Positions 477 through 18,437 of a stretch of 64,000 nucleotides of DNA are shown here, piece by piece. The stretch spans positions 496,001 through 560,000 of the forward strand of contig NZ_BSTT01000003.1 of NCBI RefSeq assembly GCF_030269685.1, in the 5' to 3' direction. The first letter of the stretch is position 1, and each line of letters starts with the position of its first letter. The DNA comes from Actinomycetospora sp. NBRC 106378. GTDB taxonomy: Bacteria; Actinomycetota; Actinomycetes; Mycobacteriales; Pseudonocardiaceae. The position numbers and the translations under genes are program-made. Under the pieces are notes generated by a model that saw only the letters and a program-made list of their open reading frames with translations, did no database searches and was not told the origin of the DNA.

Positions 477-1112
477 TCACAGTGCCTCGGCGGCGACCAT
501 GCGGGCCGCGCAGCCCTCCATGAAGTGCGCGATGTCGTCCAGGTCCATGGCCCCGCCGGGCCGGTACCAGCGCCACACGCCGGTGATCAGTCCCAGCAGG
601 GTGCGGGCCATGACCACGGGGTCCCGGTCCGGGAACTCCCCCTCGGCGATGCCGCGTTCGAGCAGCTCGACCCAGTTGCGCTCGACGCGGGCGACGAGGT
701 CCCGCGACGCGAGCCGCTCGGTCTCCTCCCGCTCGGAGGAGCGGGACGCGGCGAGCAGACCGATGTTGGCGACGAGGATCCGGTTCTGCTGGACCTCCTG
801 CGGCGACAGCGCGTAGGCCGCCGCGACGGCGGCACGCAGGCCCTCGAGAGCGGTCGGCGCGTCGGCCGTGGCCGCGCGGAACGCCGCGTCGGAGTTGCGC
901 AGACCCAGGCGCATGACGGTGAGCAGGCAGTGGGCCTTGGACTCGAAGTAGTGGTAGAGCGCGGTCTGGCCGATCCCGACCCGGTCCGCCACCGCCGACC
1001 ACTTCGTGCCCTCGTACCCGGCCTCTCCGAAGCACTCGACCGCGGCGGCCAGGATCGCGGGCCGCTTGGACCGGGGGCCGTCGTCGGTCTCGGTGAGTGC
1101 GGCGATGCTCAT
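477..1112 (-). CDS. TetR-family transcriptional regulator of the adjacent acyl-CoA catabolic regulon
   Basis: A 211-residue TetR protein. Residues about 15-62 form the helix-turn-helix domain (AILAAAVECFGEAGYEGT, then VADRVGIGQTALYHYFESK), followed by an all-helical ligand domain. The chosen ATG at 1112 begins MSIAALTETDDG; the frame stays open far upstream, but that is antisense to the dehydrogenase gene. A perfect 13-bp palindrome TGAACCGGGTTCA lies 47 nt upstream and covers the likely -35 box, so the gene is probably autorepressed. Closely related palindromes lie before the hydratase, transporter and SDR genes, which makes this the best candidate for their regulator. The ligand is probably an acyl-CoA intermediate (inference from family habits). 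Confidence 0.88.
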   Translation of the reverse strand: MSIAALTETDDGPRSKRPAILAAAVECFGEAGYEGTKWSAVADRVGIGQTALYHYFESKAHCLLTVMRLGLRNSDAAFRAATADAPTALEGLRAAVAAAYALSPQEVQQNRILVANIGLLAASRSSEREETERLASRDLVARVERNWVELLERGIAEGEFPDRDPVVMARTLLGLITGVWRWYRPGGAMDLDDIAHFMEGCAARMVAAEAL

Positions 1113-1143: not shown

Positions 1144-1172
1144 ACCCTAGTCAGCGCCTGAACCGGGTTCAT
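1144..1172 (-). promoter_or_regulatory. TetR-gene promoter with overlapping operator
   Basis: On the minus strand a -35-like ATGAAC (1172-1167), a 17-bp spacer and a -10-like TAGGGT (1149-1144) precede the TetR gene. The perfect palindrome TGAACCGGGTTCA (1159-1171) covers the -35 box, which is a repressor-type layout. It also overlaps the stop codon of the upstream acyl-CoA dehydrogenase gene (1169-1171). Confidence 0.6.
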
Positions 1173-2284
1173 GTGCTCGGCAGCCCGATCGCCCCGAGCA
1201 GCGCCTCGGAGTGCCGGGCGCCGAGCAGCGCCGCGTCGGTGGCCGCGCGCCGGACGTGGAGGTGGGCGACGTGTTCCCAGGTGAACCCGGTCCCGCCGTG
1301 GACCTGGACGGTCTCGGCCGCCACCCAGGCGTACGCCTCGCCGCACACCAGCGCCGCCGTCGCGACGGCGGCGGGCGCCTCCGGCGACCTCTCGGCGAGG
1401 GCCGCCGCCGCCCACCAGGACGCGGACCGGGCGGCCTCGACCCGGACGGCCATGTCGGCGCACCGGTGCTTGATCGCCTGGAACGTCGCGATCGGACGGC
1501 CGAACTGGACCCGGTCCGCGGCGTAGGCGACGGACAGCTCCATGGCCGCCGCCGCGCCGCCGGCCTGCTCGCAGCCGAGCGCGGCCCGACCCCGGCGCAG
1601 GACGCCCTCGACGGCCTCGCGGGCGTCGCCCGGGTGGCCGACGCGGCGGGCCGGGACGCGGTCGAGCAGGACGTCGGCCAGCTGCCGGTTCGGGTCCAGG
1701 GCGCGCAGCGGCGAGCGGACCAGCCCCTCGGCCGCGCCGTCCACCACGAACACGGCCGGTTCGCCCTCGACCGCCGCGACCACGAACAGGAGGTCCGCCG
1801 TCGCCCCCTCCACGACCTGCAGCTTCGTGCCGGAGAGCCGCCACCCGCCGTCGTCGTCGCCCTCCGCCCGGGTACCGAGGTGGTCGGGGTCCCACTCGCC
1901 GTGGTCCTCGCGGAACGCGAAGGTCCCGGTCCGCTCGCCGCTCGCGAGGGACGTCAGCAGCTCGCGGCGCAGGTCCTCGGTGCCCGAGAGTTCCAGCAGG
2001 GCCCCGACGGCGAGCACGGCGGTGGAGAACCAGGGCAGCCGGACCGGTCGGCGGCCGAGTTCCTCCGCGACCACGGCGACCTCGCGGAAGCTCGCGCCGG
2101 CACCCCCGAAGTCCTCCGGTACGTCGAGGGCGGCGACCCCGAGCTCGCCGGCGAAGCGCCGCCAGAGGTCGGGGTCCCACGTCGGCTCGGCATCGCGGGA
2201 CGGCTCGCCCCGGCGCTCCAGGAGGTCGCGGACGACGGCGCGCAGGTCCTCGGCGTCGGCGTCGGGCGTGATGCGCAGGCTCAC
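1169..2284 (-). CDS. Acyl-CoA dehydrogenase family protein (small subunit type)
   Basis: A 371-residue FAD-dependent acyl-CoA dehydrogenase. The N-terminal helical domain contains LGVAALDVPEDFGGAGASF, the middle beta domain is short, and the C-terminal helical domain has the diagnostic QVHGGTGFTWEHVAHLHVRR segment seen in actinobacterial FadE partners. It starts with GTG and shares 4 nt (GTGA) with the end of the 435-residue dehydrogenase upstream. Adjacent pairs of unlike FadE proteins often form heteromeric dehydrogenases in steroid-type catabolism, and that is plausible here. It is the last gene of the long left-running operon. Substrate unknown. Confidence 0.88.
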   Translation of the reverse strand: MSLRITPDADAEDLRAVVRDLLERRGEPSRDAEPTWDPDLWRRFAGELGVAALDVPEDFGGAGASFREVAVVAEELGRRPVRLPWFSTAVLAVGALLELSGTEDLRRELLTSLASGERTGTFAFREDHGEWDPDHLGTRAEGDDDGGWRLSGTKLQVVEGATADLLFVVAAVEGEPAVFVVDGAAEGLVRSPLRALDPNRQLADVLLDRVPARRVGHPGDAREAVEGVLRRGRAALGCEQAGGAAAAMELSVAYAADRVQFGRPIATFQAIKHRCADMAVRVEAARSASWWAAAALAERSPEAPAAVATAALVCGEAYAWVAAETVQVHGGTGFTWEHVAHLHVRRAATDAALLGARHSEALLGAIGLPST

Positions 2285-3588
2285 GGGGTCTCCCCGTCGT
2301 CGGCCGCCGCCGCCAGGACCTCGGCGTAGCGCTCCCGGGACTCGGCGCGGCGGGTGGGCAGGATGTAGGGCGGGAAGAGCCCGTCGTCGGGCTCGGTGCT
2401 GCGCAGCAGGGCCTGGGCGAGGTTGACCTTGTGGACCTCGGTGGCGCCGTCGGCGAGCCCCATGTGGTACGACTCCAGGACCCACTTGCCGAACGGCAGC
2501 TCCTTCGAGATCCCCAGCGAGCCGTGGATCTGGATGGCCCGTCCGGCCGCGTCGGCGAGCACCTTCGGCATCGCCGCCTTGACCGCCGCGATGTCGGCGC
2601 GGACCTTGCGGTAGTCCTGGTAGCGGTCGATGCGCCACGCGGTCTGCAGCACGAGCAGACGGAACTGGGTGAGCTCGATCCAGGTGTCGGCGATCATCGC
2701 CTGGACCAGCTGCTGGTCGGCGAGCCGGCGTCCCTTGCTGGTCCGCGACACCGCCCGCCGCTTCATCATCTCGAAGGCGGCGGTGACGAGTCCGACCGTG
2801 CGCATCGCGTGGTGGATGCGGCCCCCGCCGAGGCGGGTCTGGGCGACGGCGAAGCCCTCCCCGCGCTCGCCGAGGATGTTCTCGGCCGGGATCCGGACGT
2901 CGGTGTAGCGCAGGTACTGGTGGGTGCCGACCGGCTCCTCGTGCCCCCAGACCGACGTGTCCCGCACCCGCTCGACCCCGGGGGTGTCGGCCGGGACGAC
3001 GAACATGGACATCGAGCGGTGGGGTTCGGCGTCCGGCTCGGTGACGGCCATGACGATGAGGAACTCCGCGAACAGCGCGTGGCTGGAGAACCACTTCTCG
3101 CCGTTGATCACCCACTCGTCGCCGTCGAGGACGGCGGTGGTGCGGAAGCCGGTCGGGTCGGACCCGCCGTGCGGCTCGGTCATCGAGAAGCTGGAGACGA
3201 TGTCACCCGCGATGAGCGGCTCCAGGTAGGTCTTCTTGAGGAAGTCGGTGCCGTAGTGGGCGAGGATCTCGGCGTTGCCGGAGTCCGGCGCCTGGCACCC
3301 GAACACCACCGGCCCGGAGTGGGTCCGGCCCAGCTTCTCGTTGAGCAGCGCGAGGCGCAGCTGGCCGTAGCCCTCGCCGCCGAGTTCCGGGCCGAGGTGG
3401 CAGGCCCAGAGCCGGCGTTCCTTGACCTGCTCCTGCAGCGGCTTGATGAGCGCGTTGCGCACCGGGTCCCGCGGGTTCCAGGCGTGCTCGACGACGAGGT
3501 CGACGGGCTCGATCTCGTCGCGGACGAACTCCTCGACCCACTCGAGCTCCGCGGCCACCTCGGGCTCGGACTCGAATCCCCAACTCAT
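2281..3588 (-). CDS. Acyl-CoA dehydrogenase family protein (ACAD10/11-like)
   Basis: A 435-residue acyl-CoA dehydrogenase. It shows the FAD/substrate loop FSMTEPHGGSDPTGFRTTA, the middle-domain VINGEKWFSS segment, and the C-terminal RAIQIHGSLGISKELPFGKW segment followed by LADGATEVHK. This C-terminal pattern is closer to ACAD10/11-type enzymes than to short-chain FadE. The ATG overlaps the thiolase stop codon by 4 nt and the gene overlaps the next dehydrogenase by 4 nt, so translation is probably coupled. With the APH-type kinase in the same operon it suggests oxidation of an oxygenated acyl-CoA (inference). Confidence 0.9.
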   Translation of the reverse strand: MSWGFESEPEVAAELEWVEEFVRDEIEPVDLVVEHAWNPRDPVRNALIKPLQEQVKERRLWACHLGPELGGEGYGQLRLALLNEKLGRTHSGPVVFGCQAPDSGNAEILAHYGTDFLKKTYLEPLIAGDIVSSFSMTEPHGGSDPTGFRTTAVLDGDEWVINGEKWFSSHALFAEFLIVMAVTEPDAEPHRSMSMFVVPADTPGVERVRDTSVWGHEEPVGTHQYLRYTDVRIPAENILGERGEGFAVAQTRLGGGRIHHAMRTVGLVTAAFEMMKRRAVSRTSKGRRLADQQLVQAMIADTWIELTQFRLLVLQTAWRIDRYQDYRKVRADIAAVKAAMPKVLADAAGRAIQIHGSLGISKELPFGKWVLESYHMGLADGATEVHKVNLAQALLRSTEPDDGLFPPYILPTRRAESRERYAEVLAAAADDGETP

Positions 3589-4742
3589 GACGGCTCCTCG
3601 CGGGTGAGCACGGTGCAGGCGGAGATGCCCGGCGCGCCGTAGACGTGGGTGAACCCGACCTGCGGGTTGCCCGGGACCTGGTGCTCGCCGGCGTCGCCGC
3701 GCAGCTGGAGCACGTTCTCGTGGACCTGGCGCAGGCCCGAGGCGCCGATCGGCTCGCCGTTGGCCAGGCAGCCGCCGTCGGTGTTGATCGGCAGGCGACC
3801 CTCGATGGCGGTGGCGCCGGAGAGGATCAGCTCCTCCTGCTCGCCGTGGGCGCACAGGCCGGTCTCGGCCATGTGCATGAGCTCGGCGCCGGACTCGGTG
3901 TCCTGGATCTGGGCGACGTCCACCGCCGACGGTGCGATCCCCGCGGCCGCGAACGCCGCCGCGGAGGCCTCGACGGTCGGCGAGTCGGCGCGGTCGAGGG
4001 CGAGCCACGGCGAGAAGACCTCGAACGATCCGTAGCGGCGGCTGCGGAAGGTCGCGGCCGCCAGGTACACGGGCCGGTCGGTGTAGTGGTGGGCGTCCTC
4101 GGCGCGGCAGAGCACCAGCGCGACCGCCCCCTCGGCCGGCGAGCAGTACATGTACTGCGTCAGGGGGTGCGAGATCATCGGCGCCGCGGCGATCTCCGCG
4201 GCCGCCATCTCCTTCCGGCGCCACGCCATGGGGTTGCGGGCGCCGTTGCGGAAGGCCTTGGCGGAGACCTCGGCCAGCACGTCGGGCTTGATGCCGTGGT
4301 CGTGCAGGTAGCGCTGGATCTTCATCCCGAAGAACTGCGTCGTCACCATCATCCCGGTCTCGCCGTACCAGGACCCGATCCCGTGGTCGGCGGGGTCGGT
4401 GTCGAACGCGCCGCGCGGGTGCTTGTCGAACCCGATGACGATGCCGAGGTCGTGCGTCCCGGAGCGGATCGCGGCGTCCGCGGCGATGAGGGCGGACCCC
4501 CCGGTCGCGCACCCGTTCGCGACGTTGATGAACGGCAGCCCGGTGAGCCCGAGCTCGGAGACGAGGGTGTCCGCGTCCCCGGCGGAGTGCGAGCCGCCGA
4601 AGCCGAACTGCATGTCCGAGAACCGGAGGCCGGCGTCGTCCAGGGCCCTCCGCGCGGCGTGCACGGCCTGGGCGCGGCCGGATACGCCCTCGGTACGGCC
4701 GAACCGGTGCATCCCGATCCCGACGATCGCGACCCCGCTCAC
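3585..4742 (-). CDS. Thiolase-like / SCP-x-type lipid-transfer enzyme with altered GHP motif
   Basis: A 385-residue thiolase-superfamily protein. The nucleophilic cysteine is present in NGCATGGSAL (about residue 87). The C-terminal motif that is GHPxGATG in thiolases reads ANGEPIGASGLRQ, with Glu in place of the catalytic His. It starts with GTG and overlaps both neighbours by 4 nt. The gene directly upstream encodes a DUF35 zinc-ribbon/OB protein, the usual partner of Ltp2-like aldolases and certain thiolases, so the two probably form one complex. It could be a thiolase, a retro-aldolase or an acyl-transfer enzyme; the sequence does not decide. Confidence 0.85.
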   Translation of the reverse strand: MSGVAIVGIGMHRFGRTEGVSGRAQAVHAARRALDDAGLRFSDMQFGFGGSHSAGDADTLVSELGLTGLPFINVANGCATGGSALIAADAAIRSGTHDLGIVIGFDKHPRGAFDTDPADHGIGSWYGETGMMVTTQFFGMKIQRYLHDHGIKPDVLAEVSAKAFRNGARNPMAWRRKEMAAAEIAAAPMISHPLTQYMYCSPAEGAVALVLCRAEDAHHYTDRPVYLAAATFRSRRYGSFEVFSPWLALDRADSPTVEASAAAFAAAGIAPSAVDVAQIQDTESGAELMHMAETGLCAHGEQEELILSGATAIEGRLPINTDGGCLANGEPIGASGLRQVHENVLQLRGDAGEHQVPGNPQVGFTHVYGAPGISACTVLTREEPS

Positions 4743-5176
4743 GGTGTGCTCCTCACGAACGCGAAGGTGTGGACCGGGCCGTCGGCGTCGTCAGGAACAT
4801 CTCTGAAGGGCACCAGGGCCAGCTCGACCGGCATGCCGATCTCCAGGCGGTCCGGGTCGGCCTCGGTCAGGCGGGACTCCACGAGCAGCTGCCCGGGGAG
4901 CTCCACGTAGCCGACGGCGTAGGGCTCGTGGGCCTCGGTGCCGGTGTAGGGCGGCTTGGGGCGGAAGCCCTGCGTGGTGAACGACCAGAGCGTGCCGGTC
5001 CGCGCGAGCGGGACGTCCTGCATGTCCGCGCCGGTGCAGCGGGGGCAGCCGCCCTGGCGGGGGAAGGTGTGGGCACCGCAGTCGGAGCACCGGCTGCCGA
5101 GCAGCGCGGGGCCCTCGGCGGTGTCGGTGAGCAGCGAGGGATCCACGAACCTGATGTCTGCTCCTGGCGCGGTCAC
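4739..5176 (-). CDS. DUF35 OB-fold/zinc-ribbon acyl-CoA-associated protein
   Basis: A 145-residue protein with an N-terminal rubredoxin-like zinc ribbon (CSDCGAHTFPRQGGCPRC, about residues 30-47) followed by an OB fold containing TGTLWSFTTQGF and YAVGYVELP. This is the DUF35 architecture. Members bind acyl-CoA and pair with thiolase-like proteins, for example with Ltp2 in cholesterol side-chain cleavage. Here it lies immediately upstream of the thiolase-like gene with a 4-nt overlap, so a heteromeric complex is very likely. It starts with GTG, overlapping the stop codon of the upstream SDR. Confidence 0.9.
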   Translation of the reverse strand: MTAPGADIRFVDPSLLTDTAEGPALLGSRCSDCGAHTFPRQGGCPRCTGADMQDVPLARTGTLWSFTTQGFRPKPPYTGTEAHEPYAVGYVELPGQLLVESRLTEADPDRLEIGMPVELALVPFRDVPDDADGPVHTFAFVRSTP

Positions 5177-5970
5177 GGCGCGGCCAGCCGTCCGCCGTCG
5201 ACGGCCAGCAGCGCGCCGGTGGTGTAGCTCGCGCCGGGCCCGCACAGGTACAGCGCCGCCCCGACGATCTCGGCGGGCTCCCCCACGCGCTCCGACGGCC
5301 AGTCCTGCGCCATCCGTGCCACGACGGCCGGGTCCCACGACCGGCTGATGTCGGTGGCGAAGGGGCCGGCGAGGATCGTGTTGACCCGGACCGTCGGCCC
5401 GTACTCCTGGGCGAACCCCGCGGTCAGCGTGTTGAGCGCCGACTTGGCGGCGGTGTAGGGCAGGTCGCCCGCCGTGGGGCGACCCGACCCCATCGAGGAG
5501 ATGTTGAGGACGACCCCGCCGCCCCGCTGGGCCATCCGGGCCCCGGCGAGCGCGGTGAGCCGGAACGGGCCCTTCACGTTCACGGCGAAGACCTTGTCGA
5601 ACAGCTCCTCGGAGACCTTCTCCAGCGAGGGGTAGGTCGGCGCGATCCCGGCGTTGTTGACGAGGACGTCGACCGGGCCGAGCTCCTGCTCGACCTCGTC
5701 GAGCAGCGTGTCCACCTGGTCCCACTGGCCCATGTGCGCGGCGTGCGCGGTGACGCGGCGCCCGGTCGCGGCGGAGAGCTCGGTGGCGAGCGCGACGCAG
5801 GCGTCCTTCTTGCGCGACGCGACCGCGACGTCGGCGCCGGCGGCGGCGAGCGCGATCGCGATCTCCCGGCCCAGGCCGCGGGAGCCGCCGGTGACCAGGG
5901 CGGTGCGCCCGGCCATCGGCTGCGGGTCGGGGCGGGCGGCCGCGACGGCGTCGACCACTGATGTCGTCAC
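5173..5970 (-). CDS. Short-chain dehydrogenase/reductase (operon SDR 2)
   Basis: A 265-residue classical SDR. The cofactor motif TGGSRGLGREIA is near residue 28, NNAG follows at VLVNNAGIAP, the catalytic Ser lies in NISSMGSG, and YTAAKSALN supplies Tyr and Lys. It ends in the usual TTGALLAVDGG segment. A likely NAD(P)-dependent hydroxyacyl-CoA or alcohol dehydrogenase. It starts with GTG and overlaps the neighbouring dehydrogenase and DUF35 genes by 4 nt, so it sits in the middle of a translationally coupled operon. Confidence 0.9.
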   Translation of the reverse strand: MTTSVVDAVAAARPDPQPMAGRTALVTGGSRGLGREIAIALAAAGADVAVASRKKDACVALATELSAATGRRVTAHAAHMGQWDQVDTLLDEVEQELGPVDVLVNNAGIAPTYPSLEKVSEELFDKVFAVNVKGPFRLTALAGARMAQRGGGVVLNISSMGSGRPTAGDLPYTAAKSALNTLTAGFAQEYGPTVRVNTILAGPFATDISRSWDPAVVARMAQDWPSERVGEPAEIVGAALYLCGPGASYTTGALLAVDGGRLAAP

Positions 5971-7196
5971 TTGGGGATGTCCTTCCAGGCCACCCCGCGG
6001 TCGGCGCGGGGTTCCGGCGGCAGCCCCAGCAGGCGCTCCGCGATGATCGTGCGCTGGACCTCGTCCGACCCGCCGGCGATCCGGTAGCCCGGGGCGCCCA
6101 GCACGTGCTCGGTCCAGCGGTAGCTGCCGTCCCCGGCGTCGGCGATCAGCCTCGACCCGAGGACGGCCGCCGCGGCCTGCGAGACCAGCGACAGGCGCTC
6201 GGTCCAGGCCAGCTTGCGCAGCGACCCGATCGCGCCGTTCTCCTCGCCGGCCAGGCGGGCCTCCCGGTCGCGCTGTGCGGACACCGCGGCGACCTTCTCC
6301 GCCGCGTACACGGCCGCGAGCAGCCGGCGGACCTCGGGATCGGCGAGCCGGCCCAGCCGTCGTGCGTCGTCGAGCAGCTGGTCGAACCCGCCGCCCAGGT
6401 CGGCGTTGGCCCCGGAGTGGCCCCGCTCGAAGCCCAGCGTCGCGAGCGTGACGCCCCAGCCGCCGCCGACCTCGCCGAGCCGCCACGAGTCCGGGATCCG
6501 CACCTCGTCGAGGAACACCTCGCAGAACGACGTACCGCCCGACATCTGGCGCAGCGGCCGGACGTCGACGCCGGGGGTGTCCATCTTGAGCAGGAAGGCC
6601 GTCAGGCCCTTGTGCTTCGGCACGTCGGGGTCGGTGCGGCAGATCAGCTCGCCCCAGTCGGCGAACTGGGCGCCCGAGCTCCAGACCTTCTGCCCGGTGA
6701 CCACCCAGCCGTCGCCGTCGCGGACGGCCTTCGTGGCGAGCCCGGCGAGGTCGGACCCGGCGGCGGGCTCGGAGAACAACTGGCAGGCGGTGACGTCGCC
6801 GCGCAGGAGCGGGCGGACCAGCTCCTCGGTCTGCGCCGGGGTGCCGAACATCTGCACCGTGGGGGCGACGAGGGCCGTGGACACCGAGGTCAGCTCGTGC
6901 TGACCCGGCGTCGAGAACTCGCGCTCGACCTCCGCGAACGCCTCCTCGTGCAGGCCGGAGAGGCCGGCGCCGTGGTGCTCGGTGGGCCAGGAGAGCGCGC
7001 CGTACCCGGCGTCGAAGCGCGTACGCAGCCACCCGCGGATGCGGTCGATCAGCGCCCGCTCCTCCTCGAAGGGCAGGTCGTGGAACACCGCGACCGAGCG
7101 CCGGTCGTCGTCGCCGCGGGGCGGCACGGTGTCCGCGAGCCACTCCCGGGCCCGCTCGGTGAACTCGTCGAGCTCGGTCTCGCTGACGGTGGTCAT
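5967..7196 (-). CDS. Acyl-CoA dehydrogenase family protein (FadE17-like C-terminus)
   Basis: A 409-residue acyl-CoA dehydrogenase. It contains LFSEPAAGSDLAGLATKA (FAD loop), VVTGQKVWSSGAQFADWG (substrate/flavin region), and ends in APGYRIAGGSDEVQR followed by TIIAERLLGLP, the C-terminal signature of many actinobacterial FadE proteins. The ATG at 7196 overlaps the stop codon of the upstream SDR. It is the third dehydrogenase of this operon, so two or more different alpha,beta-oxidation steps may be served. Confidence 0.9.
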   Translation of the reverse strand: MTTVSETELDEFTERAREWLADTVPPRGDDDRRSVAVFHDLPFEEERALIDRIRGWLRTRFDAGYGALSWPTEHHGAGLSGLHEEAFAEVEREFSTPGQHELTSVSTALVAPTVQMFGTPAQTEELVRPLLRGDVTACQLFSEPAAGSDLAGLATKAVRDGDGWVVTGQKVWSSGAQFADWGELICRTDPDVPKHKGLTAFLLKMDTPGVDVRPLRQMSGGTSFCEVFLDEVRIPDSWRLGEVGGGWGVTLATLGFERGHSGANADLGGGFDQLLDDARRLGRLADPEVRRLLAAVYAAEKVAAVSAQRDREARLAGEENGAIGSLRKLAWTERLSLVSQAAAAVLGSRLIADAGDGSYRWTEHVLGAPGYRIAGGSDEVQRTIIAERLLGLPPEPRADRGVAWKDIPK

Positions 7197-7960
7197 CGTG
7201 CCGTCCACCCTCCGTCGACGGTGAGGATCTGTCCGGTGAGGTAGCTGCTGGCCGGCGAGCACAGGAAGAGCAGCGCGGTGTCGAGCTCCGCGGGCTCCCC
7301 GGCGCGGCCGAGCATCGTGTTGCGGCCGATCCAGCGCACGGAGCGCTCGTCGGCGAACAGCTCGTCGTTCATCTCGGTGCGGAACCAGCCGGGGGCCAGG
7401 GCGTTGACCCGGACCCCGCGGCGGCCCCAGTGACCGGCCAGCTCGCGGGTCAGCCCGAGCAGTCCGGCCTTGGACGCGGCGTAGCTCGCCCCGCCCATCG
7501 GCGCGGCCGACACCAGCCCGAGGATCGAGCTGACGTTGACCACCGCCAGGCCCTGCGGTCCGGGCACCTCGGCGGCCATCCGGGCCAGGTGGAACGGACC
7601 CACGAGGTTGGTGCCGAGGACCTCGGCGAAGCGCTCGGAGGTCTCGTCGGCGGGCTTCGCGCCGCTGTCCACCCCGGCGTTGTTGACCAGCAGGTCGATG
7701 GTGCCCGAGCCCGCCCGGACGGTGTCGATCACCGTCCGGCGGCCGTCCTCGGTGCCGAGGTCGGCGGCGACGGGGCGGAACAACGGCTGGTCGGCGGCGA
7801 GCTCGTGCAGCCGGTCCTTGCGGCGGGCGGTGGTCCACACCGTCGCGCCGGCCGCGGCCAGCACGGCGGCGAAGCGGGCGCCGAGGCCCGACGAGGCGCC
7901 GGTGACGACGGCGGTGCGCCCGGTGAGGTCGAAGAGCTCGGCGGGCGAGTTCACGGTCAT
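7193..7960 (-). CDS. Short-chain dehydrogenase/reductase (operon SDR 1)
   Basis: A 255-residue classical SDR with TGASSGLGARFA (nucleotide binding, about residue 20), VNNAGVDSG, the Ser region VNVSSILGL, and YAASKAGLL for Tyr/Lys. The C-terminus SYLTGQILTVDGGW is standard for the family. It overlaps the phosphotransferase gene upstream and the dehydrogenase downstream by 4 nt. In Lva/ACAD11-type pathways an SDR acts next to the kinase on 4-hydroxyacyl-CoA derivatives, a possible role here (inference). Confidence 0.9.
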   Translation of the reverse strand: MTVNSPAELFDLTGRTAVVTGASSGLGARFAAVLAAAGATVWTTARRKDRLHELAADQPLFRPVAADLGTEDGRRTVIDTVRAGSGTIDLLVNNAGVDSGAKPADETSERFAEVLGTNLVGPFHLARMAAEVPGPQGLAVVNVSSILGLVSAAPMGGASYAASKAGLLGLTRELAGHWGRRGVRVNALAPGWFRTEMNDELFADERSVRWIGRNTMLGRAGEPAELDTALLFLCSPASSYLTGQILTVDGGWTAR

Positions 7961-8973
7961 GACGCGCCGTCCAGCAGCCCCCGCGCGGACTCGATGAGGG
8001 CCGCGATGGTCGGCGGGAGCTGCTCCTGCACCGGGTCGTGGTGGCGGCCCTCACGGTGACGCCGCAGGTTGTGCCCCATGATCGCCGCCATCTTCATGCG
8101 GGCCAGCGCCCGGAACCACGGCGTCTGCGGCTGCGTCCCGCCCGCGGCGCGGTAGAGCTCGCCCAGCTCGTCCTCGGACGGCAGCCCCGGGACCACCCGA
8201 CCCACGCCGGGGAAGAGCGTGCCGTCGGTGAAGACCCCGAACCAGCCGAGGTCGACCCGCGGGTCGCCCACGCCCCAGATCTCCCAGTCGACGAGGGCGG
8301 TGGGCTCGACCCCGGCGCAGAGCAGGTTGCCGAGGCGGAAGTCGCCGTGCACCAGCACGGGCGCCGCGGGGTCCGGGACGTCCGCGTGCAGGGCCGTGAG
8401 GAGCTCCTCGGAGCCGGGCCGCAGCTCGAGCGGCACGGCGTGCATCGTCTCCTCCCAGCGGAGGAGTTCGTCGCCCGGCGTCGCCGGGTCGGGCAGCGCC
8501 CCACCCGCCGTCCGCACCCCCTCGGCGAGGGCGTCCAGGGGCACCGCGTGCAGGGCACCGAGCACCCGGGCGGCGCGGGTCATCCGCTCCCGGGCGAGGT
8601 CGGGAGCGAGAGCGGTCGCCACGTCGAGCACCGGCTCGACCGCCTCCCCCGCCGCCAGCTCCATGGCGAACCAGGCCGGCGCGACCTCGTCCCGGGCCGT
8701 CACCGCCGGGATCGGCAGCCCACGGCCGGCGAGCGCCGAGAGCACGTGCGACTGGCGGAGGACGTCGTGGCGGCCCCTCGCCGGCCGCCCGGGCGGGACG
8801 GCCTTCACCACGTGCCCCGACCCGCCGTCGTGCAGGACGTAGGTGAGCCCCGACCGGCCACCCTCGAGGACGGTCAACGGCCCGGCGTCCGGGGCGTCGA
8901 GCGCCGTGCGGACGCGACCCGCGAGGGCGGGGTCCGCGTCGTCGGTGCGCACCGGCACCGTCTCCTGCGTCAT
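7957..8973 (-). CDS. Aminoglycoside-phosphotransferase-fold kinase (ACAD11/LvaA-like)
   Basis: A 338-residue APH-fold phosphotransferase. It has a Gly-rich loop (LEGGRSGLTYVL), the catalytic loop VLVHGDFRLGNLL with Asp and Asn, and the metal-binding VDWEIWGVGDPRVDLGW segment. I chose ATG 8973 because GGAAGG precedes it; an in-frame ATG lies 15 nt further upstream. Kinases of this type fused or linked to acyl-CoA dehydrogenases (ACAD10/11; LvaA in levulinate catabolism) phosphorylate 4-hydroxyacyl-CoAs. Its place within three ACAD genes and two SDR genes supports such a role rather than antibiotic resistance. The actual substrate is unknown. Confidence 0.85.
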   Translation of the reverse strand: MTQETVPVRTDDADPALAGRVRTALDAPDAGPLTVLEGGRSGLTYVLHDGGSGHVVKAVPPGRPARGRHDVLRQSHVLSALAGRGLPIPAVTARDEVAPAWFAMELAAGEAVEPVLDVATALAPDLARERMTRAARVLGALHAVPLDALAEGVRTAGGALPDPATPGDELLRWEETMHAVPLELRPGSEELLTALHADVPDPAAPVLVHGDFRLGNLLCAGVEPTALVDWEIWGVGDPRVDLGWFGVFTDGTLFPGVGRVVPGLPSEDELGELYRAAGGTQPQTPWFRALARMKMAAIMGHNLRRHREGRHHDPVQEQLPPTIAALIESARGLLDGAS

Positions 8974-9006
8974 CGGGTTCCTTCCCACCGGATCGTCGTC
9001 GGCCCG

Positions 9007-9038
9007 GGCGGCCCCGCCGGCAGCCCGAGCGGGCCGCC
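9007..9038. other. GC-rich inverted repeat between hydratase and kinase genes
   Basis: An 8-bp perfect stem, GGCGGCCC (9007-9014) with GGGCCGCC (9031-9038), loop 16 nt, in the 84-nt gap between the hydratase stop and the kinase start. It could be an attenuator or processing site that lowers expression of the downstream operon, or mere GC-rich coincidence. There is no U tract. Confidence 0.3.
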
Positions 9039-9057
9039 GGCGTCGATCAGGACCGGC

Positions 9058-9846
9058 TCAGCGGCCGGTCCACTTCGGGTCGCGCTTCTCCAGGAAGGCG
9101 GACACGCCCTCGGCGGCGTCGTCGGAGTTCAGCGTGACCCCGACCGCGAGGTGCTCGAGCACCATCAGCGAGGCGATGTCCGCGTCGAGACCGCGGTCGA
9201 CCGCCATCTTCGTGAGCTTCATCTGGAACGGGCTCTTGTCGGTCAGGTGGGAGACGAACTCCTCCACCGTGGCGTCGAGCTGGTCGGCGGGGGCGCTGGT
9301 GTTGACGAGGTCGAACGCCGCGGCCTCCTGGCCGGTCAGGAGCTTGCCGGTGAGCATGAGCTCCTTGGTCTTGCGGATGCCGATCATGCGCGGCAGCCGG
9401 TAGATCGGTCCGGCGCCGCCGAAGAGGGCCCGGCGGATGTGGAAGTCGCCGATCAGGGCCGCGTCGTCGGCGATCGCGAAGTCGCACGAGATCATGACCT
9501 CGAAGCCACCCGCGGTCACGTAGCCCTCGAGGACCGCGACCGACGGCTTCGACATGTTGTAGAAGCGGTCGCACACCTTCGCCGAGACGACGGCGACGTC
9601 CATCGCCGTGCTCGAGCCGATGAAGTCCGACTGCAGGCTGTCGAGGTCGAAGCCCGAGGAGAAGGTGTTACCGCGGCCGCGGACCACCACGGCGCGGATC
9701 TCGTCGTCGCCCTCGATCTCGGTGATGATCTCGTCGAGCCGGTGCAGCATCGGCACCGTGATGCAGTTGCGCTTGTGCGGCCGGTTGAACCAGACCCGGG
9801 CGATGTGCCCGTCGCGCTCGAACTGGATGTCGTCCTCGACTGCCAT
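9058..9846 (-). CDS. Enoyl-CoA hydratase/isomerase family protein
   Basis: A 262-residue crotonase-fold protein. The oxyanion-hole segments are GRGNTFSSGFDLDSLQ and YVTAGGFEVMISCDFAIADD; the second departs from the usual GxAxGGGxE by lacking the third Gly. It ends FLEKRDPKWTGR, a typical crotonase tail. ATG 9846 is preceded by AGGAGG at 5-nt spacing, so this is the first gene of the left-running catabolic operon. Two TetR-type palindromes lie directly upstream. Downstream genes follow after an 84-nt gap containing a possible hairpin. Confidence 0.9.
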   Translation of the reverse strand: MAVEDDIQFERDGHIARVWFNRPHKRNCITVPMLHRLDEIITEIEGDDEIRAVVVRGRGNTFSSGFDLDSLQSDFIGSSTAMDVAVVSAKVCDRFYNMSKPSVAVLEGYVTAGGFEVMISCDFAIADDAALIGDFHIRRALFGGAGPIYRLPRMIGIRKTKELMLTGKLLTGQEAAAFDLVNTSAPADQLDATVEEFVSHLTDKSPFQMKLTKMAVDRGLDADIASLMVLEHLAVGVTLNSDDAAEGVSAFLEKRDPKWTGR

Positions 9847-9861
9847 CGGAGCCTCCTAAGT

Positions 9862-9874
9862 TGAACTGAGTTCA
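9862..9874. promoter_or_regulatory. TetR-type operator palindrome, hydratase-proximal
   Basis: Perfect 13-bp palindrome TGAACTGAGTTCA, immediately upstream of the Shine-Dalgarno of the enoyl-CoA hydratase gene. It matches the operator in front of the TetR gene in the outer half-sites TGAAC and GTTCA. Confidence 0.65.
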
Positions 9875-9889
9875 GGTCGAAGCTTGAGC

Positions 9890-9902
9890 TGAACCGGGTT
9901 CG
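9890..9902. promoter_or_regulatory. TetR-type operator palindrome, second copy
   Basis: TGAACCGGGTTCG, differing from the TetR-promoter palindrome only at the last base. It starts 28 bp from the start of the hydratase-proximal palindrome, so the two lie on nearly the same helix face after about 2.7 turns, compatible with a cooperating operator pair. Confidence 0.6.
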
Positions 9903-9933
9903 ATGTCAAGCGTCGACAGCGGCATTCTGGGAC

Positions 9934-9963
9934 TTGAACTGAGGTCAGTTCAGTGTCTACCGT
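9934..9963 (+). promoter_or_regulatory. Transporter promoter with embedded 18-bp operator
   Basis: -35 TTGAAC (9934-9939), 18-bp spacer, -10 TACCGT (9958-9963). The near-perfect palindrome TGAACTGAGGTCAGTTCA (9935-9952, only the central GG unpaired) starts in the -35 box and fills the spacer, so a bound repressor would block RNA polymerase. The transporter start lies about 50 nt downstream with its own GAAGGAG ribosome site. Confidence 0.6.
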
Positions 9964-10016
9964 CACGTCTCGTCGAGGACGACGGGTCCCCGGCGCCGAG
10001 CGCGAAGGAGCGCCGC

Positions 10017-11363
10017 ATGACGACGAGCACCCGGACCGACCGGGAGGTGGTCGCCCGCCGGGCCAGCACGGCTGCGGCCGTCGGCACCGCCATCGAGTAC
10101 TACGACTTCGCGATCTACGGCTCCCTCGCGGTGGTCCTCGCGAAGCTCTTCTTCCCCGCCACCCAGGGCTTCGTGGCGCTCCTGTCGACCCTCGGGGTGA
10201 TCGCCGGCGCGTACGTGATCCGGCCGCTCGGTGGTCTGATCTTCGGTCGCATCGGTGACCGCCGGGGCCGCCGCACCGTGCTCCTCGCGACCGTCGCGCT
10301 CATGGGGATCGCGACGGCGCTGACCGGGCTCCTCCCGACCTACGCCTCGATCGGTGTCGCGGCGCCGGTCCTGCTGACCCTCCTGCGCCTGCTGCAGGGA
10401 CTCTCGGCGGGCGGGGAGGTCGGCGGTGCCGTGTCGCTGTCCACCGAGTCCGCGCCGTCCAAGCGACGCGGCCTGTTCGGCTCCTCGACGTCCATCGGGG
10501 TCGCGATCGGCCTCGCCGGCGCGGCCGCCGTCGTCGGGACCGTGAGCGCGCTGACGACCGCCGAGCAGATGGCGAGCTGGGGCTGGCGCATCCCCTTCCT
10601 CATTGCCGCACCGCTGCTCGTCGCCGCCGTGATCTACCGCCTCAAGGTCGAGGACTCGCCGCTGTTCCTCAAGATGGTCGAGGAGTCGGCCCCGCCCAAG
10701 GCGCCGCTCACCGAGGTCGTCCGCGACCACAAGGGCAGCCTGCTGCGCATCATCGGTCTGGCCTACTCCACCCTGACGACGGGCGCCCTCGCCTCGGTCT
10801 ACCTGGTCGTCCACCTCTCGGGGGTGCTCAAGTACTCGCTCTCGAGCAGCCTGTGGCTGACGGTGCTCATCATCCTGGTGCCGATGGGGCTCATCCCCTG
10901 GGCCGGCGCCCTGAGCGACCGCTTCGGCCGCAAGCGGGTGGCCGCCACCGGCATGATCGGCTTCGTCGTGCTGTCGGTGCCCTGCTTCTGGCTCATGCAG
11001 CAGAACTCGCTCCTGCTCGCGATCATCGCCGCGCTCGTGCTCAACGTGCCCTTCGCCATCCAGCAGGGCGTCGTCTACACGATGTACGCCGAGCAGTTCC
11101 CGACGCGCGTGCGGTACTCGGGGGTCTCGCTGGGCTTCAACCTCGGCGGCATCATCGGCACCGGCACCGCCTCCCTGGTGGCTGCCTCCCTCGTCGCGGC
11201 CACCGGCGTGACGATCGCCCCGGCCTTCTATGCGGTGTTCGCCGCCGTGGTCGGGCTGCTGATGCTGCTCACCATCACCGAGAGTGCCGGGAAGCGGCTC
11301 GTGAACGGCACCCCGTCCGAGGAGGACGGGCCTGCCCCCGTGCCCGCCCCGGCGGAGCGCTGA
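10017..11363 (+). CDS. MFS transporter, metabolite:H+ symporter (MHS) type
   Basis: A 448-residue polytopic membrane protein with about 12 hydrophobic segments. The N-terminal AAAVGTAIEYYDFAIYGSLA and the loop motif GRIGDRRGRRTVLLAT are the hallmarks of the MHS group (ProP, ShiA, KgtP relatives), which import carboxylates and similar organic acids with protons. A second loop motif, GALSDRFGRKRVAATGM, separates the two halves. ATG 10017 follows GAAGGAG. Its promoter carries a TetR-type operator and it is divergent from the catabolic operon, so it probably imports the substrate of that pathway. Confidence 0.9.
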   Translation: MTTSTRTDREVVARRASTAAAVGTAIEYYDFAIYGSLAVVLAKLFFPATQGFVALLSTLGVIAGAYVIRPLGGLIFGRIGDRRGRRTVLLATVALMGIATALTGLLPTYASIGVAAPVLLTLLRLLQGLSAGGEVGGAVSLSTESAPSKRRGLFGSSTSIGVAIGLAGAAAVVGTVSALTTAEQMASWGWRIPFLIAAPLLVAAVIYRLKVEDSPLFLKMVEESAPPKAPLTEVVRDHKGSLLRIIGLAYSTLTTGALASVYLVVHLSGVLKYSLSSSLWLTVLIILVPMGLIPWAGALSDRFGRKRVAATGMIGFVVLSVPCFWLMQQNSLLLAIIAALVLNVPFAIQQGVVYTMYAEQFPTRVRYSGVSLGFNLGGIIGTGTASLVAASLVAATGVTIAPAFYAVFAAVVGLLMLLTITESAGKRLVNGTPSEEDGPAPVPAPAER

Positions 11364-11368
11364 CCGCG

Positions 11369-12115
11369 GTGCGTCGACTCGAGGGGCGCCGGGTCGTCCT
11401 GACCGGCGCCACCGGAGGTCTCGGCACCGCTATCGCGCGCCGGCTCGTCGACGAGGGCGCCTCGGTCGCCCTCACCGACGTCGTCGGGACCGGGCTGGAC
11501 GAGCTCGCCGCCGCCCTCGGTGGCTCGACGCTGGTGGCGACCCTCGACGTGGCCGACCCCGAGGACTGGTCCCGCGCGGTCACGGCCGTGCAGGAGCGGT
11601 GGGGCGCGGCCGACGTGCTCGTCAACAACGCCGGCATCGGCAGCCTCGGTACCGTCGAGACCGAGACCCGGGATCGCTGGGACCAGGTGGTCGCGACCGA
11701 TCAGCTCGGGGTCTGGCTCGGCATGCAGCACGTCGGTCCGGTGATCGAGGCCGCCGGGGGCGGCTCGATCGTCAACGTCGCCTCGATCCTGGGCGCGACC
11801 GGCGGGTTCGGGAACAGCTTCTCGTACGCGGCGGCGAAGGGCGCGGTCCGCGCCATGACCCGGAACGCCGCCCTGCACTGGGCCCGACGCGGCGTCCGGG
11901 TCAACGCCGTGGTCCCCGGCTTCATCGGCACCGCACCGCTGCTCGAACGCTTCGAGGGGACCGAGCGCCACCGGGCGATGCTCGACCACACGCCCATGGC
12001 CCGCCTCGGCCGCCCGGAGGAGGTGGCCGCCGCGGTCGCCTTCCTGGCGAGCGACGACGCCACCTACACCACCGGCTCGGAGCTCTGGGTGGACGGCGGC
12101 TGGGGCGCCCGCTAG
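11369..12115 (+). CDS. Short-chain dehydrogenase/reductase
   Basis: A 248-residue classical SDR: TGATGGLGTAIA near residue 13, LVNNAGIGSLG, the Ser region NVASILGATGG, and YAAAKGAVR for Tyr/Lys, with the terminal TTGSELWVDGGW. The GTG start lies 5 nt after the transporter stop codon, so the two genes form one transcript under the operator-bearing promoter. Its stop codon overlaps the stop of the convergent alcohol dehydrogenase in a shared CTAG. A likely oxidoreductase for the imported compound. Confidence 0.88.
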   Translation: MRRLEGRRVVLTGATGGLGTAIARRLVDEGASVALTDVVGTGLDELAAALGGSTLVATLDVADPEDWSRAVTAVQERWGAADVLVNNAGIGSLGTVETETRDRWDQVVATDQLGVWLGMQHVGPVIEAAGGGSIVNVASILGATGGFGNSFSYAAAKGAVRAMTRNAALHWARRGVRVNAVVPGFIGTAPLLERFEGTERHRAMLDHTPMARLGRPEEVAAAVAFLASDDATYTTGSELWVDGGWGAR

Positions 12116-13155
12116 GACCGCCGCCGGGTCCCCGCGGGCACCAGGACCGCGCGGCCGAGCAGCCGACCTCCCCGGAGGTCCTCGAACGCGCGGTCCGCGT
12201 CCGTCAGCGGGTAGATCGTGGTCCGGGGCGTGAGCGCGCCGCCCCGGGCCACCCCGACGACGGCCTCCAGCTCGGGCCGCGAGCCCCAGAACGGCACGCG
12301 CACCACGGCCCCCGAGGGCAGCACGCCGGGCTTGGACACCGTGAGCGCGCCGCCGCCACTCCCGACGACGACGAGCTCACCCGCCGTCCGGAGCAGGGAG
12401 ACCGCGAGGTCCAGGCTGCTCTGTGCCCCTGCGAAGTCGAAGACCACGTCGGCCCCGTGACCACCGGCCCCCGTCACGGCCGCAGCCGCGTCGCCCGGCA
12501 GCACCGCGACGTCCGCGCCGCACTCCCGGGCCAGGCCGAGCGCCTCCGCACGGGTGTCGACCGCGACGACCGTCGGCGACCCGAGGGCCCGCAGCAGGCC
12601 GATCGCCAGGTGCCCGAGACCACCCACGCCGATCACGACGGCGAGCGCGTCCGGCTCGGCGAGCGCCTCCCGGGCGCCCTGGATCGCGTGGAACGAGGTG
12701 AGGCCGGCGTCGGTCAGCGTCGCGGCCACCACCGGGTCCAGCCCGTCCGCGGGCACCACCCGGGCCCGGTCGAGGACCATCGCCTGCGCCATCCCGCCGT
12801 CGAGTCCGAGCCCGAGACCCGCGGCGGGCAGGCTCGCCCGCAGGTCGCAGTAGTTCGTCCGGCCCGCCGCGCAGCGCGGGCAGTGCCCGCAGCCGAAGGG
12901 GGCGTGCACGACGACCTGCTCCCCCACCGCCAGGTCGTCGACGCCCTCCCCCAGCGCCGCGACCCGCCCGCACGTCTCGTGCCCGAGCGTGAACGGCAGT
13001 TCCCACCGCGCCGCCCCGCCGTGCAGGACGGCGAGGTCGGAGTGGCAGACGCCGGCCGCCAGGACGTCGAGACGGACCTGACCCGGGCCCGGCTCGGGGA
13101 GCGGCACCTCCACCAGCTCCGCCGATCCCGGCGCGGTCATGCGGTACGCGAGCAC
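12112..13155 (-). CDS. Zinc-dependent alcohol dehydrogenase (MDR superfamily)
   Basis: A 347-residue medium-chain dehydrogenase. Catalytic zinc ligands are seen in AGVCHSDLAVLHGG and FTLGHETCGRV; the structural zinc site has four cysteines (CGHCPRCAAGRTNYC); the Rossmann motif is VIGVGGLGHLAIGL. The GTG start at 13155 is preceded by GAAGGAG. It lies 40 nt downstream of the SDR gene at 13196-13951, so both probably share the promoter near the operator at 13981. The end overlaps the convergent SDR stop codon by the palindrome CTAG. Confidence 0.9.
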   Translation of the reverse strand: MLAYRMTAPGSAELVEVPLPEPGPGQVRLDVLAAGVCHSDLAVLHGGAARWELPFTLGHETCGRVAALGEGVDDLAVGEQVVVHAPFGCGHCPRCAAGRTNYCDLRASLPAAGLGLGLDGGMAQAMVLDRARVVPADGLDPVVAATLTDAGLTSFHAIQGAREALAEPDALAVVIGVGGLGHLAIGLLRALGSPTVVAVDTRAEALGLARECGADVAVLPGDAAAAVTGAGGHGADVVFDFAGAQSSLDLAVSLLRTAGELVVVGSGGGALTVSKPGVLPSGAVVRVPFWGSRPELEAVVGVARGGALTPRTTIYPLTDADRAFEDLRGGRLLGRAVLVPAGTRRRS

Positions 13156-13195
13156 GATGTGCCTCTCCTTCGAGGAACGGATGTCGGGGTGGCGG

Positions 13196-13951
13196 TCAGA
13201 CCGCGGTGTAGCCGCCGTCGACCGCGAAGGACGCGCCGGTGGTGAACGCGGCCCGGTCGGAGAGCAGGAACGCGACCATGCCGGCGATCTCCCCCGGCGA
13301 GCCGGGGCGGCGCAGCAGGGGCGTCACCCGACCCGCGATCGCGGTGCGCGGCACGGACGACAGGCCGGCCGGATCGGCCGCGCTGTGCGCGGCGAGGTCG
13401 GTGGCGACGAGACCGGGGCACACGCAGTTGACCCGGAGTCCCCGGTCGGCGTATTCGGCGGCGAGGCTCCGGCTCAGGGCGACCACCCCGCCCTTGGTGG
13501 CGTCGTAGGCGGCCGACCGACCGGCGGCGACCAGGCCACCGACCGAGGCGACGGTGACCACCGCTGCGCCGTCCTCGCGCAGGAGGTGGGGCAGGCAGGC
13601 GCGGACGGCGAGGAACGTGCCCGTGAGGTTCACGTCGAGCAGGCGCCGCCACGTCCGCAGACTCATCTCGTCCGTCGGCGACCCGTCGGTCACACCGGCA
13701 CAGGTGACGAGCCCGTCCACCCCGCCCATCCGGGCGGCCGCCTGCTCGACGGCCGACGCGACCGCGTCCTCGTCGGCGACGTCGCAGCTCAGCGACAGCA
13801 CCGCGTCACCTCGGACGACGGGCGAGGACGCCGGGGTGCGCAGGTCCAGCGTCGTGACCCGTGCGCCGTCGTCGAGCAGCTGCTCGACCACCGCCCGCCC
13901 GATCCCGCTCGCCCCTCCGGTGACGACGACCCGCCGCCCCGTCTCCGCCAT
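13196..13951 (-). CDS. Short-chain dehydrogenase/reductase
   Basis: A 251-residue classical SDR: TGGASGIGRAVVEQ near residue 12, VTCAGVTDG (Cys in place of the second Asn of NNAG), the Ser region TVASVGGLV, and YDATKGGVVAL for Tyr/Lys, ending TTGASFAVDGGY. The ATG at 13951 is preceded by GGGGAG at 5-nt spacing; a GTG six bases upstream is an alternative. It is divergent from the SMP-30-like gene and an operator-like palindrome lies in between. Confidence 0.88.
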   Translation of the reverse strand: MAETGRRVVVTGGASGIGRAVVEQLLDDGARVTTLDLRTPASSPVVRGDAVLSLSCDVADEDAVASAVEQAAARMGGVDGLVTCAGVTDGSPTDEMSLRTWRRLLDVNLTGTFLAVRACLPHLLREDGAAVVTVASVGGLVAAGRSAAYDATKGGVVALSRSLAAEYADRGLRVNCVCPGLVATDLAAHSAADPAGLSSVPRTAIAGRVTPLLRRPGSPGEIAGMVAFLLSDRAAFTTGASFAVDGGYTAV

Positions 13952-13980
13952 GCCCACTCCCCGTCTTGACGACCTCCGAC

Positions 13981-13993
13981 TGAAACGAGTTCA
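13981..13993. promoter_or_regulatory. TetR-type operator-like palindrome in divergent promoter region
   Basis: TGAAACGAGTTCA, two mismatches from the 9862 palindrome TGAACTGAGTTCA, placed 29 bp before the SDR start and 51 bp before the SMP-30-like start. It is the weakest copy of the set but its location supports a shared regulon. Confidence 0.5.
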
Positions 13994-14044
13994 CTTCACC
14001 ACAACCCGGCGGGGCGGGCCACCCACTCGACACAGGAGTCGCGC

Positions 14045-16348: not shown

Positions 16349-16543
16349 GTGTCGATCACGGCCGACACACCGCTCGCCCCCGTCCCGCACCGACCCCGGG
16401 CGGTGTTCCTCCCCGCCGACCTGATCGCCGCCGGGCCGGTCGGCCTCGTCGTCGTGGGGCGCACCCCGGGGTGCCGGTATGCGGTCGACGTCGTCGCGCC
16501 GACCGTGGTCGAGCGCACCGCGACGGCGGGTGAGGCACGATGA
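16349..16543 (+). CDS. Small hypothetical protein upstream of sensor kinase
   Basis: A 64-residue reading frame starting GTG after GAGGAG at 6-nt spacing and ending in a 4-nt overlap with the sensor-kinase gene. The sequence VFLPADLIAAGPVGLVVVGR has a hydrophobic stretch but no recognised domain. Ribosome site, codon bias and overlap argue that it is translated and coupled to the kinase. Function unknown; it might be an accessory sensor or simply a coupling leader. Confidence 0.5.
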   Translation: MSITADTPLAPVPHRPRAVFLPADLIAAGPVGLVVVGRTPGCRYAVDVVAPTVVERTATAGEAR

Positions 16544-18428: not shown

Positions 18429-18437
18429 GCGGGCGGA

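Follow-up and report, generated by a model that had tools for sequence, protein, structure and literature searches.

This analysis concerns a TetR-family regulator of Actinomycetospora sp. NBRC 106378, which we propose to be an autoregulated repressor, together with the catabolic gene cluster beside it and the palindromes that punctuate both. The window, by which we mean the whole stretch of 64,000 nucleotides analysed, is NZ_BSTT01000003.1 positions 496,001 to 560,000 (C3:496001-560000 within the 6.31-Mb genome), and positions below are those of the window unless another record is named. Nine genes on one strand run from an enoyl-CoA hydratase gene, which starts at 9846, to an acyl-CoA dehydrogenase gene, and are followed by tetR, a SnoaL-like gene and a nitroreductase-like gene. 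A major facilitator superfamily (MFS) transporter gene and a short-chain dehydrogenase/reductase (SDR) gene diverge from the hydratase gene, and a further SDR gene and a zinc alcohol dehydrogenase gene diverge from an SMP-30-like gene. The features are as follows, with entries that carry no database match in brackets assigned by family search.

477..1112, minus strand: tetR, the proposed autoregulated repressor (Pfam TetR_N 1.6e-14, TetR_C_24 2.1e-16)
1169..2284, minus strand: acyl-CoA dehydrogenase, IpdE2/PimD-like, below the curated cut-offs
2281..3588, minus strand: acyl-CoA dehydrogenase of ACAD10/11 (LvaC) type (8v3u, 2.3e-72)
3585..4742, minus strand: thiolase of the lipid-transfer-protein type
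4739..5191, minus strand: ChsH2-like zinc-ribbon/OB-fold protein
5173..5970, minus strand: SDR oxidoreductase
5967..7196, minus strand: acyl-CoA dehydrogenase, PimC-like, below the curated cut-off
7193..7960, minus strand: SDR oxidoreductase
7957..8988, minus strand: APH-family kinase, like the ACAD11 kinase domain (Pfam APH; 8v3v, 4.2e-13)
9058..9846, minus strand: enoyl-CoA hydratase, first gene of the nine-gene operon (Pfam ECH_1 4.3e-43)
98..457, minus strand: SnoaL-like protein downstream of tetR (Pfam SnoaL_2)
10017..11363, plus strand: MFS transporter, metabolite:H+ symporter-like, below the curated cut-off
11360..12115, plus strand: SDR oxidoreductase
12112..13155, minus strand: zinc alcohol dehydrogenase
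13196..13957, minus strand: SDR oxidoreductase
14045..15631, plus strand: SMP-30/NHL-repeat protein, a possible lactonase (Pfam SGL 1.8e-9, NHL 2.7e-12)

The nitroreductase-like gene gave no NCBIfam match and takes its name from its open reading frame (ORF). To the left of the window, on the same strand, lie SnoaL, EthD, CoA-ligase, SDR, VOC-like and SDR genes, of which the SnoaL, EthD and ligase families were searched for and the SDR and VOC names come from ORF reading.

The first-pass annotation had reported five palindromes at 1159, 9862, 9890, 9935 and 13981, and all five are present. They are real and non-random: with at most one mismatch, TGAACNNNGTTCA occurs five times in the window, whereas 100 dinucleotide shuffles average 0.36 occurrences and never exceed 2. 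The genome-wide motif search proposed in that annotation finds the exact word at two places in 6.3 Mb, both in this cluster. The accompanying claim that the palindromes occur only at promoters holds inside the window and fails for the genome, where 27 of the 33 relaxed 13-mers (at most one mismatch) lie elsewhere, the others being the five in the window and one just to its left. Those 27 places are also what could be said for chance palindromes in an AT-richer intergenic stretch, an explanation that both the shuffle test and the cross-species footprint described below contradict and whose probability we put close to nil.

To see the element in other genomes we drew on a scan of genome contigs that gave 110 relatives of the TetR, of which the best 80 loci (50-91% identity) were used; these span 20 actinobacterial genera, among them Actinomycetospora, with three loci, Pseudonocardia, Streptomyces, Rhodococcus, Nocardia and Gordonia. 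In a region of 236 nt around the start of tetR, 56 of the 80 loci carry a 13-mer with at most two mismatches; the hydratase start could be tested in 37 loci, and 36 of these carry one there. Among background windows drawn from the same loci the share is 7.4%. Expectation maximization (EM), run on both strands with no motif supplied over 93 non-redundant upstream regions out of 117, converges on nAnTnGAACTGAnTTCAnnTCAGnTn with a posterior above 0.9 in 91 of them. Three symmetry centres stand out in these 91 sites, at column 16 (64.6% of nested pairs complementary), column 13.5 (62.0%) and column 11 (57.4%), the next best centre reaching 38.1%; columns 16 and 11 are the centres of 13-mers and column 13.5 that of an 18-mer. 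For this reason we describe the typical operator as a predicted composite of two overlapping 13-mers with centres 5 bp apart, jointly the 18-mer TGANNYGA-NN-TCRNNTCA, so that in sequence the typical operator holds two overlapping palindromes, as in dimer-of-dimers binders of the QacR/DarR type. The 13-bp palindrome first taken as the operator word thus survives as one of the two overlapping 13-mers, the typical operator being the larger composite. Outright replacement of the 13-mer by the 18-mer was considered and rejected, as odd and even forms win at different widths: symmetric models of odd widths 19, 21 and 23 reach log-likelihoods of 942.5, 979.0 and 1013.0 against 880.3, 925.2 and 968.5 for even widths 18, 20 and 22, whereas even widths 24 and 26 reach 1120.3 and 1143.2 against 1013.0 and 1054.2 for odd widths 23 and 25.

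Sites were scored with an even-centred long-form model of 24 columns, trained on 89 regions without the genus and scanned over 84 kb (the window plus 20 kb to its left); the reversed pattern or the reversed sequence served as control in pattern counts and locus scans. The predicted operators, with scores from this model, are these.

1159..1171: predicted tetR operator, a lone 13-mer, TGAACCGGGTTCA, exact match, overlapping the stop codon of the upstream gene
9862..9879: predicted operator of the hydratase operon, TGAACTGA-GT-TCAGGTCG, score 28.0
9885..9902: weak operator or remnant containing the 9890 palindrome, one base from a TTGACA hexamer, score 14.3
9935..9952: predicted transporter operator, 18-mer TGAACTGA-GG-TCAGTTCA, exact match to the 18-mer pattern, score 28.7
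13981..13998: predicted operator between the divergent SDR and SMP-30-like genes, TGAAACGA-GT-TCACTTCA, exact match to the 18-mer pattern, score 22.2
-655 to -638 relative to the window (L016:19345-19362): strong extra predicted operator outside the window, before the SnoaL/EthD/CoA-ligase operon, score 26.6

Apart from the 1159 site, which overlaps the upstream acyl-CoA dehydrogenase gene, those inside the window are intergenic. The top scores over the 84 kb fall on 9935, 9862, -655, 9857 and 13981, the 9857 match (24.9) overlapping the 9862 site, and in 40 shuffles the mean maximum was 11.2 and the highest 23.0. The 18-mer pattern has two exact matches in the genome, at 9935 and 13981; five other genomic 18-mers at one mismatch score between -1.8 and 13.7, scores of at least 13 being expected by chance about 0.3 times per 84 kb and some 24 times per genome. 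With at most two mismatches the pattern has 124 places in the genome, part of them listed, against 50 for the reversed control, and further, distant regulon members may therefore exist elsewhere. The one-mismatch 13-mer at C3:494911 (window -1089) was rejected as an operator, with a long-form score of 0.2. In-gene location was dropped as a discriminator of off-cluster places, 14 of the 27 + 5 having been checked, because long ORFs are common in GC-rich DNA and cover cluster sites as well.

Within the genus, where 18 Actinomycetospora genomes were compared, the TetR occurs in five genomes and the PimC-like dehydrogenase in the same five. Exact 18-mers number 10 over the 18 genomes, nine of them in the five TetR genomes, all at the locus, and one in the TetR-less G003, against a single match of the reversed control, in the window's own genome; exact 13-mers number 14, of which 13 lie in TetR genomes (10 at the locus, three elsewhere) and one in the TetR-less G015, the control giving none. 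Of the 13 genomes without the TetR, three have a completeness below 90%. The presence of the TetR in only five of 18 genomes suggests gain or loss of the cluster as a whole. Gene order is mostly kept in the four TetR-bearing congeners; SDR4 and SMP-30 were not found in the stretches taken from G014 and G004, and in G014 the left SnoaL gene is preceded by additional DNA. Because the word co-occurs with the TetR and the PimC-like dehydrogenase in the genus, a local TetR regulon is the best reading of the palindromes. The individual sites are kept to different degrees: none of 13 columns varies at 1159, two of 18 at 9862 and one of 18 at 9935 in the five genus genomes, five of 18 vary at -655 in four genomes, and the 13981 site is identical in all three genomes where the region can be aligned. 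The site at 9885-9902 scores low and is not conserved in G004, and the 9890 palindrome, though present, is accordingly graded as weak rather than as a full operator. At the place corresponding to 1159 a near-identical word, TGAACCCGGTTCG, stands in five of seven Pseudonocardia loci (L035-L038, L040) and was not found in the other two (L041, L042). In G002 the tetR operator is identical and lies farther from the matched end of the acyl-CoA dehydrogenase gene.

The same co-occurrence bears on whether another regulator, such as LexA or a global regulator, binds the palindromes while the TetR is a bystander. The actinobacterial SOS box is GAAC-N4-GTTC, and its GAAC/GTTC half-sites are shared with the sites here; however, the palindrome spacing is N3, and neither the composite TGANNYGA-NN-TCRNNTCA nor the EM consensus is of the N4 type. 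Exact sites are moreover limited in the genome to the cluster, and the site upstream of tetR persists in L106 and L109, two loci in which a tblastn search for the remaining window genes gave none. We consider such a bystander role remote, and the TetR itself very probably binds the predicted sites, as judged from these sequence comparisons.

Beyond single upstream regions, long-form matches of at least 16 occur 3.5 times per locus over the 80 loci, with at least one in all 80, against 0.49 per locus (32 of 80) in the reversed sequence, a count in which many upstream regions also trained the model. A Rhodococcus qingshengii plasmid gives a partly independent check, being outside the training set while related Rhodococcus loci were in it: each of its eight matches with a score of 20 or more is no farther than 160 bp from a start codon, seven of them being intergenic and one in the end of a ligase gene, 50 bp before tetR. 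Of three weaker matches (10.8-14.9), two fall inside genes and one spans a gene start. On this plasmid (L131:12670-21351) the cluster is followed by genes for EthD, a metallo-beta-lactamase-fold hydrolase and an ABC transporter. Motif sites stand there before the EthD and before the solute-binding-protein genes. A Streptomyces plasmid has four matches scoring at least 12 in a region without a gene table in its record.

How the sites lie relative to promoters bears on the sense in which the TetR would act. Inspection by eye shows a TTGAAC (9934-9939) overlapping the 9935 site, with TACCGT beyond a gap of 18 bp, and a TTGACA (9909-9904, minus strand) one base away from the 9890 site; both the TTGAAC/TACCGT pair and the TTGACA are kept in all five cluster-bearing genus genomes, and a scan for consensus sigma-70 promoters returned none at the three places scanned. 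The earlier statement that a -35 box lies inside two of the palindromes is therefore weak. Downstream of the conserved TTGACA, the 9862 site occupies the stretch 16-33 bp ahead of the hydratase start codon. An activator or mixed regulator that binds the same sites could be argued from TetR-family proteins that activate, FasR being an example in the excerpts available, and from the 9885-9902 site, which is beside a -35-like hexamer and not over a start site; the positions of 9862 and 9935, however, both suit repression, with the promoters placed by eye. We hold activation to be improbable, and repression is strongly favoured on these predicted positions.

The protein is of the expected kind. 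Its structure model has a mean predicted local distance difference test (pLDDT) score of 91.5 and combines a TetR_N helix-turn-helix with an all-helical ligand domain, the stretch of the helix-turn-helix around the recognition helix hardly varies over 32 sequences (the window protein and 31 of the 80), and a palindromic operator lies, by sequence, near its own gene, as is typical of the family. PfmR, DarR and KstR2 come closest in fold among the best 50 of 945 structure matches listed, and AibR and Bacillus FadR rank lower. None of the NCBIfam equivalog cut-offs was reached, the bit scores being 48.1 of 150 for ScbR, 41.2 of 201.3 for BetI, 35.1 of 224.9 for MftR, 33.4 of 280 for KstR and 31.6 of 200 for FadR.

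We propose the following model for this regulator. In the absence of inducer, TetR dimers would bind the composite operators at the promoters of the hydratase-led operon, the transporter and the SDR/SMP-30 pair, would likewise bind the composite operator of the SnoaL/EthD/CoA-ligase operon left of the window, and would bind the lone 13-mer before tetR itself. A pathway intermediate would then release the TetR; an acyl-CoA thioester is the most likely candidate, and for an acyl-CoA as the effector we put the odds at about even. Taking each run of genes as one transcription unit, the predicted regulon holds about 23 genes (3 + 9 + 2 + 2 + 1 + 6 by unit) rather than the 18 or so of the first-pass annotation, because the strong -655 site adds the left CoA-ligase operon; the local regulon itself, as first claimed, is supported by co-occurrence in the genus and by recurrence upstream of orthologues.

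What the regulon is for is best read from its kinase and its ACAD11-type dehydrogenase. For the dehydrogenase at 2281-3588 the match to mouse ACAD11 reaches 2.3e-72, against 6.8e-44 for the best match outside four ACAD11-like chains, and the Asp of its LADG motif and its RLGGGRIHHAMR align with mouse D753, R626, H634 and R637 (chain numbers one below those of PMC12440821, from the available parts of which the residue roles are taken). It thus carries the features of the ACAD10/11-LvaC group, a catalytic Asp in place of Glu, the phosphate-binding Arg and the H-MR signature. In the kinase at 7957-8988, HGDFRLGN aligns with mouse D220 and the catalytic Asp of HGD is kept; the two proteins are unfused, encoded by separate genes. 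According to the excerpts available of PMC12440821 and PMC11342911, such kinase/ACAD pairs convert 4-hydroxyacyl-CoA to 2-enoyl-CoA, and the module acts on 4-hydroxy acids in mammals and Pseudomonas. Because such pairs act on 4-hydroxyacyl-CoA and the catalytic residues of both enzymes are kept, a 4-hydroxyacyl-CoA pathway is the likeliest use of the cluster, and we judge from the sequences that the regulon probably, by somewhat better than even odds, serves it. The CoA ligase would activate the acid, the APH-like kinase would phosphorylate its 4-hydroxyl, the ACAD11-type dehydrogenase would eliminate the phosphate, and the remaining enzymes would finish by beta-oxidation or retro-aldol cleavage. 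By tblastn, in which flanks cut by contig or stretch ends were scored as absent, a kinase of at least 45% identity is present in 64 of the 80 loci; the corresponding counts are 65 for the thiolase and 63 for the hydratase.

The same repressor might instead govern alicyclic or steroid-like acyl chains, with the kinase/ACAD pair in another role. The PimC-like and IpdE2/PimD-like dehydrogenases, the lipid-transfer-type thiolase and the ChsH2-like OB protein do resemble sets for side-chain or ring degradation, and the relatives of solved structure include KstR2; set against this are the kinase Asp and the ACAD11-type Asp and Arg, which are kept, and the presence of both genes in most TetR loci. 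We regard this substrate as unlikely, though well short of negligible, and both readings could be valid if the substrate were a cyclic 4-hydroxy acid. For the 4-hydroxyacyl-CoA pathway, a lactone feeding in through the SMP-30-like protein is possible as an idea that is weak and unsupported outside the genus, because the SMP-30-like and MFS transporter genes lie, by the sequence comparison, outside the shared core: SMP-30 was found by tblastn in none of the 80 loci and an MFS gene of at least 45% identity in eight, both occurring in congeners.

Several findings weigh against the reading of the TetR as repressor of a 4-hydroxyacyl-CoA regulon. The 80 loci are mutually related and hence not independent; 24 of the 80 tetR upstreams have no 13-mer better than three mismatches, and EM misses the tetR upstream of L032 and the hydratase upstream of L101. 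The 1159 site scores 3.1 in the long-form model, the 13981 score of 22.2 falls below the highest of the 40 shuffles and is not decisive alone, and the sigma-70 scan was empty. The strict ACAD11 signature is found in 12 of the 80 TetR loci; a looser one (AP-D/E-S/T-GN with R..GR), designed once the outcome of the strict pattern was known, is found in 68, while the Asp pattern is found in 65. Distant loci carry Tyr in place of the signature's second His, and in 12 of the 80 no ACAD11-like dehydrogenase was found within the stretch examined. Taking both sides together, we put at about 0.8 the probability that the TetR at 477-1112 acts locally as an autoregulated repressor, at composite operators, on a regulon that probably serves 4-hydroxyacyl-CoA catabolism. 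Far more tentatively, the locus may represent an unrecognised and widespread actinobacterial regulon for 4-hydroxy acids or gamma-lactones, in which the TetR senses a 4-hydroxyacyl- or 4-phosphoacyl-CoA or a lactone and in which two dimers at catabolic promoters and, in this genus, one dimer at its own promoter would let repressor level and target repression be set separately; this we think doubtful as it stands. To the right of the cluster, at 16540-20910, ORF reading shows two apparent histidine kinase/response regulator pairs.

Autoregulated TetR repressors of acyl-CoA catabolism are well known, and the regulator and DNA word described here are without a description that we could find. Among the listed literature matches, which are to open-licence papers, neither the word TGAATTCAGTTCA nor the FadR consensus was found, nor any report of the motif or the regulator, nor of the regulation of an ACAD10/11-type module in actinobacteria; the excerpts available on Rhodococcus lactone desaturation, EdcR, Nocardioides steroid motifs and Mce3R hold no match to the motif. 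For a TetR subfamily with 80 loci in 20 actinobacterial genera, the analysis provides an operator and a regulon that can be put to the test, and it links this regulator to a split ACAD10/11-type module. Such a ligand-responsive repressor could be used to sense 4-hydroxy acids or lactones.

Several known systems share parts of this arrangement. KstR2, the repressor of cholesterol ring catabolism, has reportedly the operator AnCAAGnnCTTGnT, which differs from the one here. It is alike in its TetR fold and its acyl-CoA catabolic regulon (4w1u, 2e-11; TM score 0.74-0.77 on the query) and unlike in its gene set, with 26% identity to the window TetR. FadR of Bacillus and FadRSa of Sulfolobus are likewise TetR repressors of acyl-CoA catabolism, whereas the NCBIfam FadR model gives the window TetR only the 31.6 bits mentioned above. 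The Bacillus FadR operator is said to be TGAATGANTANTCATTCA, with its inner TGA one base closer than here. For the following systems the comparison rests on the available excerpts of the papers cited. The number of FadRSa dimers bound, one or two, varies with the operator (PMC6449355), and DarR, a mycobacterial and rhodococcal TetR and a structural relative, binds overlapping palindromes as a dimer of dimers, although its operator is ATACT-N4-AGTAT and its ligand c-di-AMP (PMC10636190). By analogy, the overlapping 13-mers recall the binding of both and may be occupied in the same way. BkaR, which controls a mycobacterial branched-chain keto-acid operon, is autoregulated through a 24-bp palindrome at its own promoter and governs 10 genes in M. 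smegmatis, while its operator core is GTTA(N)T(N4)A(N)TAAC (PMC3920632). QsdR, a lactone-sensing TetR repressor of Rhodococcus erythropolis, controls an operon for lactone catabolism that includes a CoA ligase (PMC6262395) and differs in its QsdA/QsdC gene set; it was compared by description, and its structure 4ZA6 is not among the best 60 of the 70 structure matches listed, nor in a second set of 18. The closest parallel in enzymes is the lva operon, with its LvaA kinase and LvaC dehydrogenase, and mammalian ACAD10/ACAD11, where a kinase is likewise paired with an ACAD bearing the catalytic Asp and the Arg signature (PMC12440821, PMC11342911, the two ACAD10/11 papers on which our statements on the lva operon rest). 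The kinase and ACAD genes are separate in the lva operon too (PMC12440821); here, in contrast to either system, the two genes lie beside a TetR, together with a thiolase/ChsH2-like pair and further dehydrogenases.

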